Positions 11,255 through 58,430 of a stretch of 64,000 nt of DNA are shown here, piece after piece. The stretch lies in the NCBI GenBank assembly GCA_018266845.1, contig JAFDZO010000007.1, positions 1,917 through 65,916 of the forward strand, read 5' to 3'. Source of the stretch: Bacteroidota bacterium. GTDB lineage: Bacteria; Bacteroidota; Ignavibacteria; Tepidaquicellales; Tepidaquicellaceae. The notes beneath the pieces are model-generated. The model was given only the letters and a program-made list of their open reading frames with translations, was not told where the DNA came from and did no database searches. Position 1 is the stretch's first letter. Each line of letters starts with the position of its first letter. The position numbers and the translations under genes were made by a program.

Positions 11255-11776
11255 ATGAACTTCTCACTCGAAAAATCAATGGAGATTCTTGAAAGAACTC
11301 CGAATGTAATTAAAGAATTATTAGACGGGCTTTCCGGCGATTGGACAATGCAGAACGAAGGCGGCGATACTTGGACTCCCTATGACGTTCTCGGACATTT
11401 AATTCACGGCGAACTTGCTGACTGGATTGGAAGAACTGATATAATTTTGTCAGATGGTCCAGATAAAAATTTCAAGCCCTTCGATCGCTTTGCGCAGTTT
11501 GAAGAAAGCAAAGGAAAGACTCTAAAAGATTTAATCGGAGAGTTTATGATACTGCGCATAATGAATCTGCAAAAATTGAAAGAGAGAAACATCACGGAAA
11601 ATGATTTGAACAAAACAGGCATCCATCCTGTTTTTGGTGAAGTAACACTAAAGCAGCTTTTATCAACATGGGCAGTTCACGATTTGAATCACCTTTCGCA
11701 AATAATCCGAACAATGGCTTATCAATATAAAGATGAAGTCGGTCCTTGGAGAGAGTATTTAAGAATTGTAAAGTGA
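11255..11776 (+). CDS. DinB-family protein
   Basis: The 173-residue protein has the DinB/YfiT four-helix-bundle layout. The three metal-binding histidines are visible as DVLGHLIHGE (about residue 48) and WAVHDLNHLSQI (about residues 141-152). Family members are metal-dependent enzymes of low-molecular-weight thiol and related chemistry (for example bacillithiol transferases), or have unknown roles. It stands alone, divergent from the ABC-F gene, with a TTGACA-like box about 30 bases upstream. The substrate cannot be inferred. Confidence 0.85.
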   Translation: MNFSLEKSMEILERTPNVIKELLDGLSGDWTMQNEGGDTWTPYDVLGHLIHGELADWIGRTDIILSDGPDKNFKPFDRFAQFEESKGKTLKDLIGEFMILRIMNLQKLKERNITENDLNKTGIHPVFGEVTLKQLLSTWAVHDLNHLSQIIRTMAYQYKDEVGPWREYLRIVK

Positions 11777-11947
11777 GTTGTGAGGTATGAATTATGAGGT
11801 ATGAATTATGAATTATGAATTATGAATTATGAATTATGAATTATGAATTATGAATTATGAGGTGTGAATTATGAATTATGAGGTGTGAATTATGAATTAT
11901 GAGGTATGAGGTATGAATTATGAATTATGAGGTATGAATTATGAGGT
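11777..11947. repeat. Heptanucleotide tandem tract, GAATTAT/GAGGTAT units
   Basis: The tract begins right after the DinB stop codon. About 24 units of 7 bases follow in register, mostly GAATTAT with interspersed GAGGTAT or GAGGTGT variants, including an uninterrupted run of eight GAATTAT units. It contains no gene. Similar 7-base-period tracts with other motifs occur elsewhere in the window. Confidence 0.95.
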
Positions 11948-11950
11948 TAC

Positions 11951-12090
11951 AAAGAATAACGGATAACGAATAATGAATAACGGGTAACGAGCAACGAATA
12001 ACGAGCAACGAATAACGAGCAACGAATAACGAGCAACGAATAACGGGCAACGAATAACGAGCAACGAACAACGAGCAACGAATAACGGGC
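11951..12090. repeat. Heptanucleotide tandem tract, AACGAAT/AACGAGC units
   Basis: This tract directly follows the GAATTAT tract but uses a different 7-base motif, mainly alternating AACGAAT and AACGAGC (a 14-base higher-order unit), with AACGGGC variants. It runs to the base before the stop codon of the histidine kinase gene, and so fills the whole rest of the intergenic gap. Confidence 0.95.
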
Positions 12091-13815
12091 TTAAAACTTC
12101 AATATAAACTTAGAGCCTTTTCCTTCTTCTGACTCGGCGTGTATTTCTCCTCCCATTAGTTCGGTAAGTTTTTTTACTATAGAAAGACCCAAGCCTGTGG
12201 AGCTTTCTCCGGCAGTGGGCTTATTGCTCGTCTTAGCAAATTTTTTAAAAATATTTTTCATCTCATTCTCTTTAATCCCCAAACCGCAGTCAATAACTTC
12301 TATAAATTTCTTTTCTTCCTGTTTATAAATTTTCACGGTTACCGGACTTCCCGGATAAGAATATTTTACGGCATTAGAAAGTAAATTGCTGATTATTTCT
12401 CTAAAGGCAATCCTATCTGATTTTATCATTACATCGCCGTTACTTTCTACATTGAATGATATTTTCTTGTTCACAATCTGCTCCTGCATTTCCTCTATAA
12501 TTTCATTTACTGCTCCAACAGCATTTACATCCTCCGGTTTCAGATTATAGTCCCCTCTCTCTATTGCATTCACATCAAGCAGATGCTTTATTATCTCCTG
12601 CATTTTGTTTGTAACAGCTTCGGTTTTTTCCAGTCTCTTTATAATATCTTCCTGTGAAAAACGGGCAATGTTTCTTTTTAAATGAGATACCGAAAGCAAT
12701 ATGCTGCTCAATGGATTTTTCAAATCGTGGGCAACAAGCCCGAGGAATTCATTTTTTTCTTCATTCAGTCTTACAAGCTCCACATTTCGCAGGCGCTCTA
12801 TTTCCGCTTTCTGCTTTTCATGTTCAACCTTATATGAAATCTCAAGCTCATTTATACTTCTTAAAGTATCTTCATCTAGTCTTTTAGATTTTAGCGAGTG
12901 AAATTTCTGATAATACTCCAATGCTGTTTTATAATCTTCAAGAACAGTATAAGCAGTTGAATACGATTCGTAAATATGCTCCCTGAAAACTTCCAGATGT
13001 TTATCTATCATCATCTCGCATTTTCTAAGATACTCCAGCCCCTTCTCGGGGTTTCCCTTGTTAATGTAATTCAACGCATAATTCTCATAGCAGATAATCA
13101 GCCACTCCTTATTGCCCCTCTTCTCAAAAATACTTATAGCCTTATCATAATATTCTTCAGCAATATCAAATTTTTCTTTATGAAAATGCACCAAACCTAA
13201 AACAACATAAGTTTCTCCTAAAATAGAATCATCTCTGTAAGTGAATAATTGATTTAAGCATACTATAGCATAATCTTTCGCATTTTTGTAGTTTTGCAAA
13301 TCAAGGTAACACTTAGCTATATTCAAAATGATAAGGCTGAGATTTTCATTATCTCCTATCTCTCTTTTTATTTTCAGCCCCTGCTTGTAGCTTGATATTG
13401 CCTTCTCAAAATTACTAATGCTGTAATGAACTGAGCCGAGATTGTTTATTACGTTCGATGCCATCACCATATCGTTTTCTTTCATAGCTTCATCATAGCA
13501 TATCTGAAGGCAGTCAATGGCTTTTGAATAGTTTCCTGTTTTGCCGTAAGTCATCCCCAAGCGAAGCAAAATGCCGGTCAGCTCTACATGCTCATTTTCG
13601 CCTTTGTAAAAAAAATACGCCTTGTCTAAAAACCTTATGGCATCAATAAATTTTTCGCTTTTTAAATAGCATGACCCAAGCGAGTAATAAAGAAACGAAG
13701 CCTCATTGCCGCTTAGCTCATCCTCAGCAATTAATTCAATCTCTTTCAGCCTTAAAATTTTTTCGTCATTGCTGAGAGATTTACTATTGATAATATTTTT
13801 TACCCATTCAAACAT
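12091..13815 (-). CDS. Soluble TPR-containing sensor histidine kinase
   Basis: The 574-residue protein has no signal peptide or membrane segment. Residues about 1-310 are tetratricopeptide repeats (for example AIDCLQICYDEAMKEND, AISSYKQGLKIKREIGD). They are followed by a coiled coil, then a HisKA domain with the phospho-acceptor in VAHDLKNPLSSI (about 365), and an HATPase_c domain with SNLLSNAVKYS, DCGLGIKENEM and GLGLSIVKKL. It is a cytoplasmic kinase that senses through protein contacts. No response regulator is adjacent. The kinase at 49373-51166 has the same architecture and nearly identical signature segments, so the two are paralogs. Confidence 0.92.
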   Translation of the reverse strand: MFEWVKNIINSKSLSNDEKILRLKEIELIAEDELSGNEASFLYYSLGSCYLKSEKFIDAIRFLDKAYFFYKGENEHVELTGILLRLGMTYGKTGNYSKAIDCLQICYDEAMKENDMVMASNVINNLGSVHYSISNFEKAISSYKQGLKIKREIGDNENLSLIILNIAKCYLDLQNYKNAKDYAIVCLNQLFTYRDDSILGETYVVLGLVHFHKEKFDIAEEYYDKAISIFEKRGNKEWLIICYENYALNYINKGNPEKGLEYLRKCEMMIDKHLEVFREHIYESYSTAYTVLEDYKTALEYYQKFHSLKSKRLDEDTLRSINELEISYKVEHEKQKAEIERLRNVELVRLNEEKNEFLGLVAHDLKNPLSSILLSVSHLKRNIARFSQEDIIKRLEKTEAVTNKMQEIIKHLLDVNAIERGDYNLKPEDVNAVGAVNEIIEEMQEQIVNKKISFNVESNGDVMIKSDRIAFREIISNLLSNAVKYSYPGSPVTVKIYKQEEKKFIEVIDCGLGIKENEMKNIFKKFAKTSNKPTAGESSTGLGLSIVKKLTELMGGEIHAESEEGKGSKFILKF

Positions 13816-37465: not shown

Positions 37466-37591
37466 TCCCGCTAAAGCGGGATTTGATAACTGATAAAATT
37501 CAGAATTATGAATTACAAATAAAGTGTTTTCGTTACTAAGCTCCTGCTTCGTAACGAAAAACACCGCCGTTGTTGGTCTCTGACCAACAAC
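37466..37591. repeat. Cluster of three palindromes after the EVE gene
   Basis: Three separate hairpins lie in 126 bases. TCCCGC/GCGGGA with loop TAAA is at 37466-37481. GTGTTTTCGTTAC/GTAACGAAAAACAC, with one bulged base and a 14-base loop that holds AAGC/GCTT, is at 37524-37564. GTTGTTGGTC/GACCAACAAC with a 3-base loop, TCT, is at 37569-37591. No gene is seen here. A degenerate copy of the last hairpin lies at 38787-38809. Confidence 0.85.
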
Positions 37592-37600
37592 CACAATACA

Positions 37601-37685
37601 GTAGAGACGCAATACTTTGCGTCTCTAACACAACTCATGAAAGACGCATTTAATGCTGCCCGCCTAGACTTGGCGGGGTCTCTAC
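37601..37685 (-). repeat. Structured repeat element C (inverted partner of the element at 38819-38902)
   Basis: On the minus strand the element begins GTAGAGAC and ends GTCTCTAC. Inside are the stems CCCGCC/GGCGGG (loop AAGTCTA) and GCAT/ATGC (loop TAA), and the hairpin formed by AGAGACGCAAA and TTGCGTCTCT. Copy D on the other side of the desaturase gene has the same order of parts in the opposite orientation, with changed but still complementary stems. Confidence 0.8.
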
Positions 37686-38700: not shown

Positions 38701-38777
38701 ATTTAATTAGCAAACTCTTTGAATCTCAGCATATAAATTCTGGAATTTTTTTATTCAAAAAACTAGCCTAATTAAAT
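38701..38777. repeat. Ten-base inverted repeat next to element D
   Basis: ATTTAATTAG (38701-38710) and CTAATTAAAT (38768-38777) are perfectly complementary and bracket 57 AT-rich bases upstream of the desaturase gene. The right arm ends 4 bases before the palindrome copy at 38781. Confidence 0.5.
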
Positions 38778-38780
38778 TAT

Positions 38781-38902
38781 GCCGTCGTTGCTGGTCTCTG
38801 ACTAACAATTAAAAATTTGTAGAAACCCTGCCAAGTCGGGGCAGGCAGCGATACTCGCCTCTCCCGTACATATAAACGAGACGCAAAGTATTGCGTCTCT
38901 AC
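38781..38902 (+). repeat. Structured repeat element D with preceding degenerate palindrome
   Basis: 38787-38809 is a degenerate copy of the GTTGTTGGTC/GACCAACAAC hairpin. From 38819 the element reads GTAGAAAC, then CCTGCC/GGCAGG (loop AAGTCGG, 38827-38845), GCGA/TCGC (loop TAC, 38848-38858), then GAGACGCAA/TTGCGTCTC (38878-38899), and closes with GTCTCTAC at 38902. It is collinear with the reverse complement of 37601-37685. Confidence 0.8.
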
Positions 38903-38962
38903 GAACAACCAACAACGGACAACCAATAACGAACAACCAATAACGAATAACTGACAACGAAA
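38901..38962. repeat. Heptamer tract of ACGAACA/ACCAATA units
   Basis: About eight 7-base units (ACGAACA, ACCAACA, ACGGACA, ACCAATA, ACGAACA, ACCAATA, ACGAATA, ACTGACA) continue directly from element D. Confidence 0.85.
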
Positions 38963-39782: not shown

Positions 39783-40135
39783 GCTAAATTTTGTAATGGG
39801 GAAATAGTAATAATCAGGATTTTCAAAATCTGAATAAAAGAATTGCAACTTGAAATTTGAAACCGAAAAGAATGTTACTTTTTTGTTACTATTAGTAACA
39901 CAATACCGTGCTTTGAATAGAAATATTTTAAAAAATGGAAGCGATTTTCCCTTCCTTTTTAAAGAGGGGGTCAGAATGTTACAAAAATGTTACTCTTAAC
40001 TGTTCCGACGCAGGAGCATCGGAACAAGAAGTAAAATGTTACAATAATGTTACTTTGTTCAATTAACAATTAGGAATTAGAAATTAACAACGAGCAACGA
40101 ATAACGAACAACTAACAACGAGCAACTGACAACTA
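39783..40135. repeat. Intergenic zone with five AATGTTAC motifs, hairpins and a heptamer tract
   Basis: AATGTTAC occurs at 39871-39878, 39975-39982, 39986-39993, 40035-40042 and 40046-40053. The last four form two pairs spaced 11 bases. GTTAC/GTAAC at 39885-39899 and TGTTCCGA/TCGGAACA (about 40000-40025) are hairpins. From about 40081 to 40146 a 7-base tract (AACAACG, AGCAACG, AATAACG, AACAACT and so on) runs into the end of the activase gene. No gene is seen. Confidence 0.8.
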
Positions 40136-43100
40136 TCAACTAGCAACTAAATCAGATTTCTTCCTGAACTTTTCCGGGATAACAATCTCAACTTCCCTCT
40201 GCGGTTTCGGGAAAAACCCGCTAGTGCTATGACCAATGTTCTGCTCGCGTAGATGCTTTTGCAGCTCAAGCTGAACGCGGATTTTTCTTTCGTACTCCTT
40301 CAGCTTTTCTTCGATAGTAAGTATCTTGTTCTTTTTTGCGACCATGTCTTCGCGGTAGCGTTTTAAGAAGTAGCTTATGGTTTCAATACGGATTTTTATA
40401 GCGCCCGTCGGTTTGTTCTCATCAATATCTTTGAATGAGAAATAAGGTGTTCCCGATGACTCGACAATTTCCTGAACTACAGTATAAATCGGCGCATCGT
40501 GTCCGCACTTGAACGAAGAAAGCTCAAGCGCAACTAAGTTAGGATGACGCGCAGTAAATTTTGAAGCCCAGACCTTGCGGGATGTATTTTCAGAGTAAGA
40601 ATTTTTCCATACGTCTTCAATATCCATGGGCGAGCGGATAATTCCGGCTCTTACTTCATCGCCAAAAAGATTTTCAAGGGTTTCGTCGTCCGTGGGCAAA
40701 GCATCCTGAAAGAAAACCGGATAGCCGAGCTTCTGGAACTCTTCAAGAATTTCGTGATTAATACCTGGGTCATTGTGATAAGGTCTGCCTAAAAGAACAA
40801 TACCTATTCTGTCTTCGCGTTCAAGCTGATTAAGAACTTCCTTTGATTTCCATTTCAGGTCATCAAAGAACCGGCTCAATGCTTTGTATCCTTCTTTAAC
40901 GGCGCGTTTGTTTTCTTCCTCTGAAAGCCCGAGGCGTTCATGAAATTCTTTATATAATTGTCGTGCTGTAAGCTGTTCATTATTAAGCTGAATGAAGGGA
41001 CACAGATATTCAAGTCCCGACTCCTTAAACAAATCACCTTCCTTAGTGAAGGCAGCTTTTGCCGCTTCTATAGTTGCAGTGATTGTTGGGCAGGCAGTAT
41101 GTGCCTGAGCATATTCTAAATCCGATGGCATTGTATCAACAATCGGTGCAAAAATAAAATCTAACTTTTTCTTTTTATGTTGTACGTAAACAAGATTATG
41201 AACATGAGGGATAGCAACTTTCGAAGGAAAACACGGGTCAATGCTTCCGCGTTTTGCTCCGGCTTTATACATTTCTTCAGAGGTATATTCGCTGAATACA
41301 AAATTTCCCAGCTTAATGCCAAGCGACTCAAAATATGCAGTGAAGAACGGAGTATGCGAATACATATTAAGCAGACGCGGCATTCCGATAACAATTTTTT
41401 CGCGCTGCGAAATTTTTTCAAGCTGTTTTGAAATATGCTCTTCGGCTTGCTTGTTCTTTAATAATCTTTTTATTGGAGAATTGTAAACTCTTGCTTTAAT
41501 TTCTTCCTCTGTATCTTTTACTGTCGGCGGTTTAACAGGCATCCATACTTTTGTTGCTGCTTCATCCACCATGTTGGGATTTGCTTTCTTGATTGCATCA
41601 AGTCCTGATTTGATTCCTTTCATATCGGCAATATCTTCAACGGTTCCCTTTTCGCAAGTAGCAATAATTAAACGCTGAATGCCTGCTTCCATAGGGACTT
41701 TTGATTTCGGGTTAACAATTTTTTCCGGCTGAATAATATTAAGCTCGACAAATTTTTTCTTTTCCTCTTCAAAATGTTCAGGTTCAATATGTTCAGTCTT
41801 AACATCTATAAAAGTTCTGAGGCATTTATTCTTGCAGAAGTAACACCGAGTATCTTCGGAGCGCGTTGTCTTGTATAAAATTTGCGATACTTTTTCCAGA
41901 CCTATAAATTGTGTCCTATGTCCGTTGTGATATAATCGCGCGGCTTCAATACCGCAGCCAATTGCTCCGGCTTCACCTGTGTGCTTATGAACATAAATAT
42001 TTGGAGTAATGCCTGAGCCTTTGAATCTTTCTTCGATAAAATCCACCTGTGATTTTACTGCAGCGAGATTATGCTGGGTTCCGCCCTGCAATACAAAAGT
42101 AGAGCCGAGTTTTGCAAGATTTGGGATTTGAGAAACATAAAGCCAGATATTTTTCGGAAGAACGTTTGCTAAGCCAGCCATGATTTCTTCTGCTTTCCAG
42201 CCTTGTCGCTGGAAGTCAACAATATCAGACTGCATAAATACAGCGCAGCCGTAACCAAAGGTAGGGAAAGTTTTAGCAGAAAAAGCAACGTTTGCAAACT
42301 CTTCTACTTCATATCCGAAACCTTGTGCAGTTGACTGAAGGAAGTAACCGTTACCTGCAGAGCATTGAGTATTGAGTTTGAAATCAACAACGCGTCCCTG
42401 ATTGAGAATTATGATTTTTATATCCTGTCCCCCGACATCGCAAATAACATCTGTCTGCGGATAGAAATGAAGTCCTGCCTGAGTGTGTGCAACAGTTTCA
42501 ACGAGGGCAACGTCTGCGTGAAGAACGTCTTTCAAAATATCTTTTGCATAGCCGGTAGTTCCGACACCAAGGATTTCCAAAGTTGCGCCCTGCGCTTCGA
42601 CCTGTTCCTGAATTTTGCCAAGTATATCAATACAGTCTTCAATCGGATTTCCCTTTGAAAGCTGATATGCTTTTACTAAAACTTGTTTATCAAGTGATAC
42701 TAGCGCTGCTTTTGTAGAAGTTGAGCCGCCGTCAATTCCTATAAATCCGCGTACAATTTCTCCCGGCTTAAACGTTGCGGGAGTAAACTTTTCTACTTTA
42801 TATTTTTGAATGAAGGCATCAAGCTCTTCGGGAGATTTTGAAAGTCCCGTTGTATTTCCGGTTGAGTTAAGTTTCTTTTCAGCTTCACGTCCGAATTTTA
42901 TATAATCTTCTAAACCTTTATAACCTTTATAAACACCAATATGATTTTCCTCTTCTTTACCGAATTCAACTGCGCCGATAGCAGCAAAGTATTGAGCGTT
43001 ATCGGGAACACGGATAAGCTCTTCAATTGGTTTATCGGGAACCTGTACTTTTCTTTCCTGCCAAATCTTCGGAATATTGGAACGCCAGCAGTCAATCATT

Positions 43101-53519: not shown

Positions 53520-53624
53520 GGGCGCGCCTTGCGAACCGCAGGTTCGCAAGGCGGCACCTGCAAAATTGAAGAATTCAATTTTGCAGGAGTCGCCTGTCCC
53601 GATTTCATCGGGACAGGCGCGCCC
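53520..53624. repeat. Four-way-junction element A
   Basis: The 105 bases pair almost completely. The closing stem is GGGCGCGCC (53520-53528) with GGCGCGCCC (53616-53624). Arm 1 is TTGCGAACC/GGTTCGCAA with loop GCA (53529-53549). Arm 2 is a 21-base stem (53550-53570 with 53574-53594, one A-A mismatch, one G-T pair) with loop GAA. Arm 3 is TGTCCCGAT/ATCGGGACA with loop TTC (53595-53615). No base is left unpaired between the arms. It is not a tRNA: the loops are 3 bases. Confidence 0.9.
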
Positions 53625-57296: not shown

Positions 57297-57680
57297 CTAT
57301 TCCTTTTCAGAAAAAAAGTATTCTACCAGAGCAGCAGCGCTTACACCCAGTGTGTATGCGAAAATGTCGCTCCATAGAAATCCAAACCCAAGCACCAATC
57401 CTCCCAATGTTGTATTCCTTATGCTTTCTATCCACGGCGCATGATATAACTGGCTTATCTCTATGCAGTAACTGAATGCAAGAGCAATAAACGCCACCTT
57501 AATTGTGCTCTTCTTATTGAAAACAAACGCAAACATAAAGAACACCATAGCTGCCCAAAGGGAATCTCCAAGGTAATCGTTTACAATAACAGGAAAAATG
57601 AACGAGTATTTTCTGGAAAGAAGACCGCAGATGATTACAAATGTGAAAATGAGAAAATACAGAAGGCGGTTTCGTTTCAT
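57297..57680 (-). CDS. DUF2809-family membrane protein
   Basis: The 127-residue protein has four hydrophobic spans: LLYFLIFTFVIICGLLSR, LWAAMVFFMFAFVF, VAFIALAFSYCIEISQLYHAPW and IFAYTLGVSAAALVEYFF. The GLLSRKY, SLWAAMVFF and SYCIEISQLYHAPW segments are DUF2809 features, and the family is distantly VanZ-like. Function is unknown. Its stop is 2 bases from the stop of the convergent GlxA-type gene. It is the last gene before element B. Confidence 0.85.
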   Translation of the reverse strand: MKRNRLLYFLIFTFVIICGLLSRKYSFIFPVIVNDYLGDSLWAAMVFFMFAFVFNKKSTIKVAFIALAFSYCIEISQLYHAPWIESIRNTTLGGLVLGFGFLWSDIFAYTLGVSAAALVEYFFSEKE

Positions 57681-57752: not shown

Positions 57753-57861
57753 GGGGTGCCCTCCGTCCCGATTTTCAATCGGGACGTGCGTAAAACAAGA
57801 AATTGAAAATTTAAATTTCTTATTTTGTTCACATGAACCTTCGGTTCGTGGAGGGCACCCC
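57753..57861. repeat. Four-way-junction element B
   Basis: The closing stem GGGGTGCCCTCC (57753-57764) pairs with GGAGGGCACCCC (57850-57861). Arm 1 is GTCCCGATT/AATCGGGAC with loop TTC (57765-57785). Arm 2 is 57786-57804 with 57814-57832, 15 of 19 paired, AT-rich, 9-base loop. Arm 3 is ATGAACC/GGTTCGT with loop TTC and one G-T pair (57833-57849). Junction bases are all used, as in element A, but the two short arms are in the opposite order. Confidence 0.88.
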
Positions 57862-57871
57862 CGATTGCTTA

Positions 57872-57906
57872 AAACAAAAAAGCTCTTACATATCTGTAAG
57901 AGCCAT
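57872..57906 (-). terminator. Intrinsic terminator after the VOC gene at 57969
   Basis: GCTCTTAC/GTAAGAGC (57882-57889 and 57896-57903) with a 6-base loop is followed on the minus strand by TTTTTTGTTTT. It terminates the minus-strand gene ending at 57969. Confidence 0.8.
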
Positions 57907-57968: not shown

Positions 57969-58430
57969 TTACGATTTATTATTCAATTGCTCGGCAAGTG
58001 CAACCATAATTCCTTCAGGACCTCGTACATAACAGAGGCGGTACATATCTTCGTATTGGGTAATTTCGCCTATGGTTTCACCACCATGCGTGCGTAAGCG
58101 CTCAACAACATCATCGATATTGTCAACAGCAAACATAATGCGACGTATACCGAGAGTATTCACTGGTGTATTTTGGGGTTCAATTCTGACAGCTGCCGGT
58201 GTATGGAACTTATCGAGTTCTATCCTGCCTTGACCGTCAGGAGTGCGCAGCATTGCTATTTCACATTTAACATTCTCAAGTCCTACAAGCAGGTCTACAA
58301 ACTTCCCTTCAACAGGTGTCTGACCTTCCAACTCCATGCCAAGCTCAATAAAGAATGCTTTGACGGCTTCAAGATCATCAACGACAATCAGGACATTGTC
58401 CATTCGGAGCATTTTATCTTTTGAAGCCAT
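57969..58430 (-). CDS. VOC-family protein (glyoxalase-like)
   Basis: The 153-residue VOC domain has LRMDNVLIVVDDLEAVKAFFIELGMELEGQ, CEIAMLRTPDGQGRIELDKFHTP, RRIMFAVDNIDDVVERLRTHGGE and YRLCYVRGPEGIMVALAEQL. The metal ligands expected of glyoxalase I-like proteins fit His and Glu at these places (IELDKFH, GIMVALAE). The substrate is unknown. It is the fourth VOC gene in 5 kb but lies outside element B, with its own terminator, next to the tRNA gene. Confidence 0.87.
   Translation of the reverse strand: MASKDKMLRMDNVLIVVDDLEAVKAFFIELGMELEGQTPVEGKFVDLLVGLENVKCEIAMLRTPDGQGRIELDKFHTPAAVRIEPQNTPVNTLGIRRIMFAVDNIDDVVERLRTHGGETIGEITQYEDMYRLCYVRGPEGIMVALAEQLNNKS

Follow-up and report, generated by a model that had tools for sequence, protein, structure and literature searches.

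The B element and its surroundings

In the analysed window, a stretch of 64,000 nucleotides, an element of 109 bases (B) is located between two open reading frames, and a second member of the same family (A) is found on the other strand. The features of the locus, with the paired arms of the elements termed P1 to P4, are the following.

57297..57680, minus strand: ORF of 127 aa, putative VanZ-like by inspection, start about 70 nt from B
57753-57861, 109 bases: element B, the whole cloverleaf of closing stem and three hairpins
57753..57764, plus strand: 5' strand of P1, GGGGTGCCCTCC, its outer portion agreeing with the family terminal repeat GGGGCGCC
57765..57785, plus strand: P2 hairpin of 21 nt, 9 bp with a 3-nt loop (GTCCCGATT-TTC-AATCGGGAC)
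57786..57832, plus strand: P3, the long AT-rich arm of 47 nt, interrupted by internal mismatches (2x2 and 1x1)
57833..57849, plus strand: P4 hairpin of 17 nt, 7 bp with a 3-nt loop (ATGAACC-TTC-GGTTCGT)
57850..57861, plus strand: 3' strand of P1, GGAGGGCACCCC, the partner of GGGGTGCCCTCC
57881..57904, minus strand: hairpin with T tail resembling an ordinary intrinsic terminator, in the gap that separates B from the glyoxalase-like ORF and outside the element
57969..58430, minus strand: ORF of 153 aa, putative glyoxalase/VOC-like by inspection, on the other side of B
53520..53624, minus strand: element A, second family member, 85.8 bits with the covariance model
53616-53624 / 53520-53528 (P1), 53595-53615 (P2), 53550-53594 (P3), 53529-53549 (P4): arms of A in minus-strand reading

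The first-pass annotation had described B as a four-way design with arms abutting without spare bases, and its coordinates and stems turned out to be exact: the closing stem P1 comprises 12 bp, and the four-way junction contains zero unpaired bases. P3 is not perfectly paired; it carries the mismatches listed above, and its terminal loop is enlarged in this copy. A was rightly assigned the same four-way design, but it is read from the minus strand and its arm order matches that of B only after reverse complementation. Its closing stem, given before as GGGCGCGCC/GGCGGCGCCC, is in fact GGGCGCGCC/GGCGCGCCC (53520-53528 / 53616-53624). Folded as single-stranded DNA, B reached -34 kcal/mol compared to -15.7 +/- 2.7 kcal/mol for dinucleotide shuffles (z = -6.92), and 0/200 shuffles were equally good. 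In a sliding RNA-fold scan no other part of the window folded as strongly as A and B, and a sequence-blind scan of the window for four-way junctions yielded exactly these two. An ortholog of the VanZ-like ORF is present in the sister genome, but the element is not found beside it. As the glyoxalase-like ORF is also missing from the corresponding place of that genome, a larger change occurred at the B site.

Copies, anatomy and orthologous sites

Plain DNA similarity detected B, one relative in its own genome, two in the same-genus genome G001 and one reduced hairpin. With so few members found in this way, a covariance model was required. The model (R1), built on five seed copies, identified 18 copies in the source genome (3.53 Mb, 46 contigs, 98% complete), namely 16 intact ones, the broken L057 and the reduced L059, and 12 copies in G001, the only sister species sampled. 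A 13th G001 copy was found by a sequence-blind scan (C2:1684128-1684234). In total, about 30 scattered copies were obtained, all of them in the source bacterium or in the single sister species that was sampled. The strict sequence-blind scan of 1.75 Mb of G001 gave 9 matches, 6 of them family members, 1 another repeat and 2 chance-like, while eight shuffles of the scanned contig yielded 0, 0, 0, 0, 0, 1, 0 and 0 four-way-junction matches. A looser version of the scan returned AT-rich chance matches, and the results given here rest on the stricter scan only. We are aware that the copies were mostly found by a model which rewards pairing, so that too few degenerate ones are counted and the covariation values are somewhat too high; this bias is limited by the shape-only scan and by the orthologous sites described below.

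Using the covariance model, 0 copies were found in 57 other relatives (59 including source and sister) and 0 in 292 further genomes from the class (294 in all), both with stricter filters under which weak matches are lost. The family sample comprised 28 other genomes, one of them in the same genus, and of the 152 genera sampled only one has the element. When 84,980 species genomes and IMG/VR were scanned for the pattern, with the window's own genome possibly not included, the matches were nested hairpins or coincidences. Rescored by the model, the best of these matches reached 19.6 bits and was a P1+P2-type hairpin, no cloverleaf, and folding of the eight genome matches gave no cloverleaf either.

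The family element measures about 105-115 bp and is dispersed in intergenic DNA. In the 29 curated copies P1 comprises 8-13 bp with a GGGGCGCC-like outer core (GGCGC or GGTGC in 28/29), and the arms have median lengths of 19 nt (P2), 47 nt (P3) and 17 nt (P4), with loops of mostly 3 nt. P3 is mostly AT-rich, with AAATTGA...TCAATTT frequent close to its tip. The identity of the family is its shape: a closing inverted repeat, P1 with its conserved outer core, and three abutting palindromes. Mean sequence identity among the 29 copies was 61% versus 48% for a shuffled baseline and equal within and between both species. For 13 of the 29 the nearest neighbour belonged to the other species; the sub-types therefore probably predate the species split. 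The most similar pair was 82% identical and near-identical copies were not present, so that recent transposition is not visible. Most copies carry all-purine or all-pyrimidine triplets in the P2 and P4 loops (GAA/TTC, GGA/TCC, AAA/TTT). In B, L043, L064 and L072 a 2x2 mismatch (CG versus GA, AA or TT) sits at the base of P3, at a distance of three pairs from the junction, and persists while the remaining arm is re-paired. Three decay forms were found: P3 is disrupted in L057, P2 is enlarged in L058, and L059 (1501-1550; C22:43239-43288 of the own genome) consists of P1 and P2 only, which are joined in a single perfect hairpin, as would result if P3 and P4 had been cut out exactly at the junction or were still to be added.

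The comparison with the sister genome covered contig C2, 560 kb of C5 and four 20-kb pieces. At two loci (L041/L066 and L056/L065), both in poorly alignable intergenic DNA, the flanks were orthologous on both sides and a cloverleaf was present in both species with its stems largely replaced. No element stands in the sister at L042, L043, L057, L040, L059 and B, as well as at L037 by model search. This adds up to 2 shared and 7 absent orthologous sites, where absence may reflect a loss in the sister instead of a lack of gain. Gain or loss of the family thus takes place at individual sites, and its shape outlasts its letters where it is kept. Two further pairs (L050/L077 and L053/L072) have one flanking gene and the P4 type in common, which falls short of demonstrating strict orthology. 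The genes next to the copies are arranged in tandem, convergently or divergently, with no consistent orientation or neighbour gene. About 12 of the 29 copies lie 30 nt or less from a stop codon; on contig C2 of the sister 10/10 tested copies were intergenic, and 4/10 were found within this distance compared to 16% of intergenic bases. Left of the L057 element a hairpin cluster (TTACGAAGCTCCAGCTTCGTAAGG, GAAACTGCGTTTC, CCGTCCCAAAC..GTTTGGG-CGG) occurs as two direct copies, and most of this stretch is missing at the orthologous site of the sister. An AT-rich 280-bp repeat lies near two cloverleafs (L038 397-676 and L050 1097-1369), 87.5% identical and in opposite orientation.

Maintenance of the fold and relation to known repeats

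Aligning the copies and scoring compensatory change, the check proposed with the first-pass annotation, revealed stems that differ and compensation that is near-total. With arms assigned by hand from the folds, the share of Watson-Crick pairs in the 29 copies was 96.5% for P1, 96.1% for P2, 99.5% for P4 and 83% for P3, the last counted without allowing for bulges. The 7 bp of P4 were paired in 203/203 cells. When the 3' strands were swapped among copies, canonical pairing amounted to 61% (P1), 71% (P2), 55% (P4) and 48% (P3). In the five seed copies both-sided changes were found at 22 pairs versus 9.4 in shuffles, and covariation was 0.418 versus 0.167 (0/500 shuffles as high); shifting the pairing register by 1-3 columns abolished the signal. 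Altered stems with retained pairing had been taken as pointing to selection on structure. The observation stands, but compensation is not in itself proof of selection, because template switching between the arms of inverted repeats also yields both-sided changes without it (PMC8794818, PMC8604942). The near-constant arm lengths, the complete pairing of P4 and the survival at two orthologous loci suggest selection or a copying requirement.

G-U pairs are tolerated in an RNA fold, but not in a DNA palindrome or cruciform, as the opposite strand then has A-C. In the elements they made up 21/1363 pairs (1.5%) versus 38/433 (8.8%) in the tRNAs of the sister genome. Moreover, loops were found exactly inverted with unchanged arms, as for template switching: in P2 identical inner arms enclose TCC in L065 and L073 (GTCCCGCT|TCC|AGCGGGAC) versus GGA in L066, and in P4 they enclose GGA in L043 and L053 (CTTTCGCC|GGA|GGCGAAAG) versus TCC in L072. 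Arm homogenisation together with loop inversion is documented for template switching between inverted-repeat arms (PMC8604942), a process that makes and keeps perfect hairpins via multi-base compensatory changes (PMC8794818). A search of the element against Rfam 15 gave no family at the gathering threshold, and weak matches in E-value mode remained far below the gathering scores. A T-rich tail, on either strand, was observed in only 3/29 copies; lacking such tails, the element was rejected as an intrinsic terminator. Given the rare G-U pairs, the inverted loops and the mixed orientation to genes, the fold is most likely maintained as DNA rather than RNA. Covariation is commonly read as proof of a functional RNA. 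With very strong covariation, few G-U pairs and inverted loops, the family offers a natural test case for DNA-level fold maintenance, be it by template switching or by cruciform or single-strand recognition, versus selection on RNA. In practice, RNA discovery based on covariance could mis-call such repeats as new riboswitches.

Among known systems, REP, BIME and REPIN sequences are likewise short, dispersed intergenic palindromes with single-stranded hairpin folding and variable stems, often located at gene ends. REPs are single hairpins of 20-50 nt behind an unpaired GTAG-type tag, occur in hundreds of copies and are tied to RAYT genes (PMC8266576, PMC3733652), whereas the cloverleaf family has 105-115 bp, four stems and 16-18 copies. 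A GTAG tag near the ends was absent in nearly all of the 29 copies, and G-T pairs, common in GTAG REPs (PMC3733652), are rare here. The RAYT/Y1 transposase (PF01797) had 0 matches in G001 with its 13 copies and was matched in most relatives without the element; as the mobiliser it is thus unsupported. Bacteroidetes and Chlorobi are among the hosts of CGTC-tagged palindromic repeats, for which a dedicated transposase is not known (PMC3733652). CGTC stands at the meeting point of P1 and P2 in many cloverleaf copies and is missing from many others; in contrast to the unpaired tag of those repeats (PMC3733652), GTC is paired inside P2 here, about 13 nt from the element end.

With MITE/ERIC-type elements the family shares size, terminal inverted repeats (P1), intergenic position, the lack of coding capacity and presence or absence at orthologous sites. 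It differs from them by its three internal palindromes, a sequence nearly free to vary and the lack of a target-site duplication: the direct-repeat score was 3.67 versus 3.54 +/- 0.17 for mismatched flanks (494/2000 as high), and duplications that seemed genuine on inspection, such as GCAATTC/GCAACTC at L063, did not pass the permutation test. A candidate parent insertion sequence would end in GGGGCGCC...GGCGCCCC. Integron attC sites, recognised as folded single-stranded DNA, also keep structure with little sequence; however, they form one long hairpin instead of a four-way cloverleaf, the cloverleaf copies are single and dispersed beside ordinary genes, and the core pair RYYYAAC/GTTRRRY was present in none of the 29 copies checked. 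Template-switch mutation at quasipalindromes, a process rather than a family, shares arm homogenisation and loop inversion, but its usual descriptions concern single hairpins or the stems of RNA genes, not a dispersed multi-arm repeat. Overall, the family works like a REP or MITE, but by tag, size, copy number and transposase it is not a REP.

We favour, with a probability of roughly 0.55, a dispersed, non-autonomous, genus-restricted palindromic DNA repeat of REP/MITE-like type, whose pairing is kept by template switching and a constraint on the DNA fold. The folded single strand, either lagging-strand template or extruded cruciform, would be what was copied or recognised, and between copying events template switching during replication would re-perfect each palindrome. 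Letters would turn over while the fold persists, and copies losing the fold would decay, as in three examples. Mobility of the element is presumed here. Arm order, near-constant lengths, the P1 core and the 203/203 pairing of P4 are beyond the reach of template switching, from which we infer an additional constraint on shape, acting via copying (only folded copies spread) or via use (the junction is read). Counting against this explanation are the absence of near-identical copies, the missing target-site duplication, the lack of an identified cognate mobilising gene, a copy number low for a MITE or REP and the recurring 2x2 mismatch of P3, which template switching should erase. More tentatively, the cloverleaf might be the substrate of a DNA-processing machine (transposase, recombinase or junction-binding protein) reading the four-way shape and not the sequence. 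If it is read in this way, it could conceivably represent a mobile element or site specified by shape, its letters drifting freely as template switching re-perfects the stems. Shape as the recognition signal itself would add a four-arm form to the single-hairpin DNA elements (REP, IS200/IS605 ends, attC).

A selected four-way-junction fold of a lineage-specific structured RNA (3'-UTR or 5'-UTR element, small RNA), resembling a riboswitch class or ornate motif, would agree with the strong covariation and the fixed architecture. In several copies the recurring P3 mismatch looks like the internal loop of an RNA, and certain P4 loops are readable as UUCG-type. Nevertheless, the G-U share far below that of tRNAs, the mixed gene orientation without a consistent neighbour, the missing Rfam match at gathering threshold and loops that are inverted, not conserved, make this RNA unlikely. 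Palindromes adjacent by chance and perfected by template switching alone, with neither function nor mobility, would be expected to leave the loop inversions and both-sided changes observed as their footprint, and other palindromic hairpin clusters exist in the genus. We consider such a mutational by-product improbable: the common four-arm order, lengths and terminal core of about 30 copies are left unexplained, the differences in occurrence at orthologous sites imply that the element is copied or lost whole, and the 7-bp arms of P4 are fully paired, though inversions in yeast were observed solely with arms longer than 9 bp (PMC8604942).

The copies near stop codons (about 12/29, and 4/10 on C2 versus 16% of intergenic bases) would suit a bidirectional transcription terminator or a stabiliser of mRNA 3' ends that spreads together with genes, as ERIC/REP do at the ends of genes. 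With T-rich tails in just 3/29 copies, counting either strand, and several copies between divergent genes, this role is very unlikely. We regard as highly improbable a chromosomal site for a structure-specific, junction- or cruciform-binding protein, serving for instance nucleoid or supercoiling control; the near-perfect four-way geometry, the conserved outer P1 core and the intergenic, dispersed distribution would fit, but the copies are few and often absent at orthologous sites.

Further repeats of the window and the sister genome

Besides the cloverleafs, tandem repeats of 7 nt/14 nt (GAATTAT..., AACGAGCAACGAATAAC...) form long arrays at window positions 11746-12114 and 40047-40161, and other parts of the window contain related pieces. 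The sequence-blind scans of G001 yielded a second type of nested palindrome, rich in CCCCTCC/GGAGGGG (C2:1473055-1473162 and C2:1471111-1471226). Further strong hairpins (GTTGTTGGTCTCTGACCAACAAC; AGAGACGCAATACTTTGCGTCTCT) lie at window positions 37501-37630 and 38776-38905. One hairpin of these two stretches, GAGACGCAAT, was found again in the genome at L002 and L006, indicating several palindromic repeat types in the lineage.
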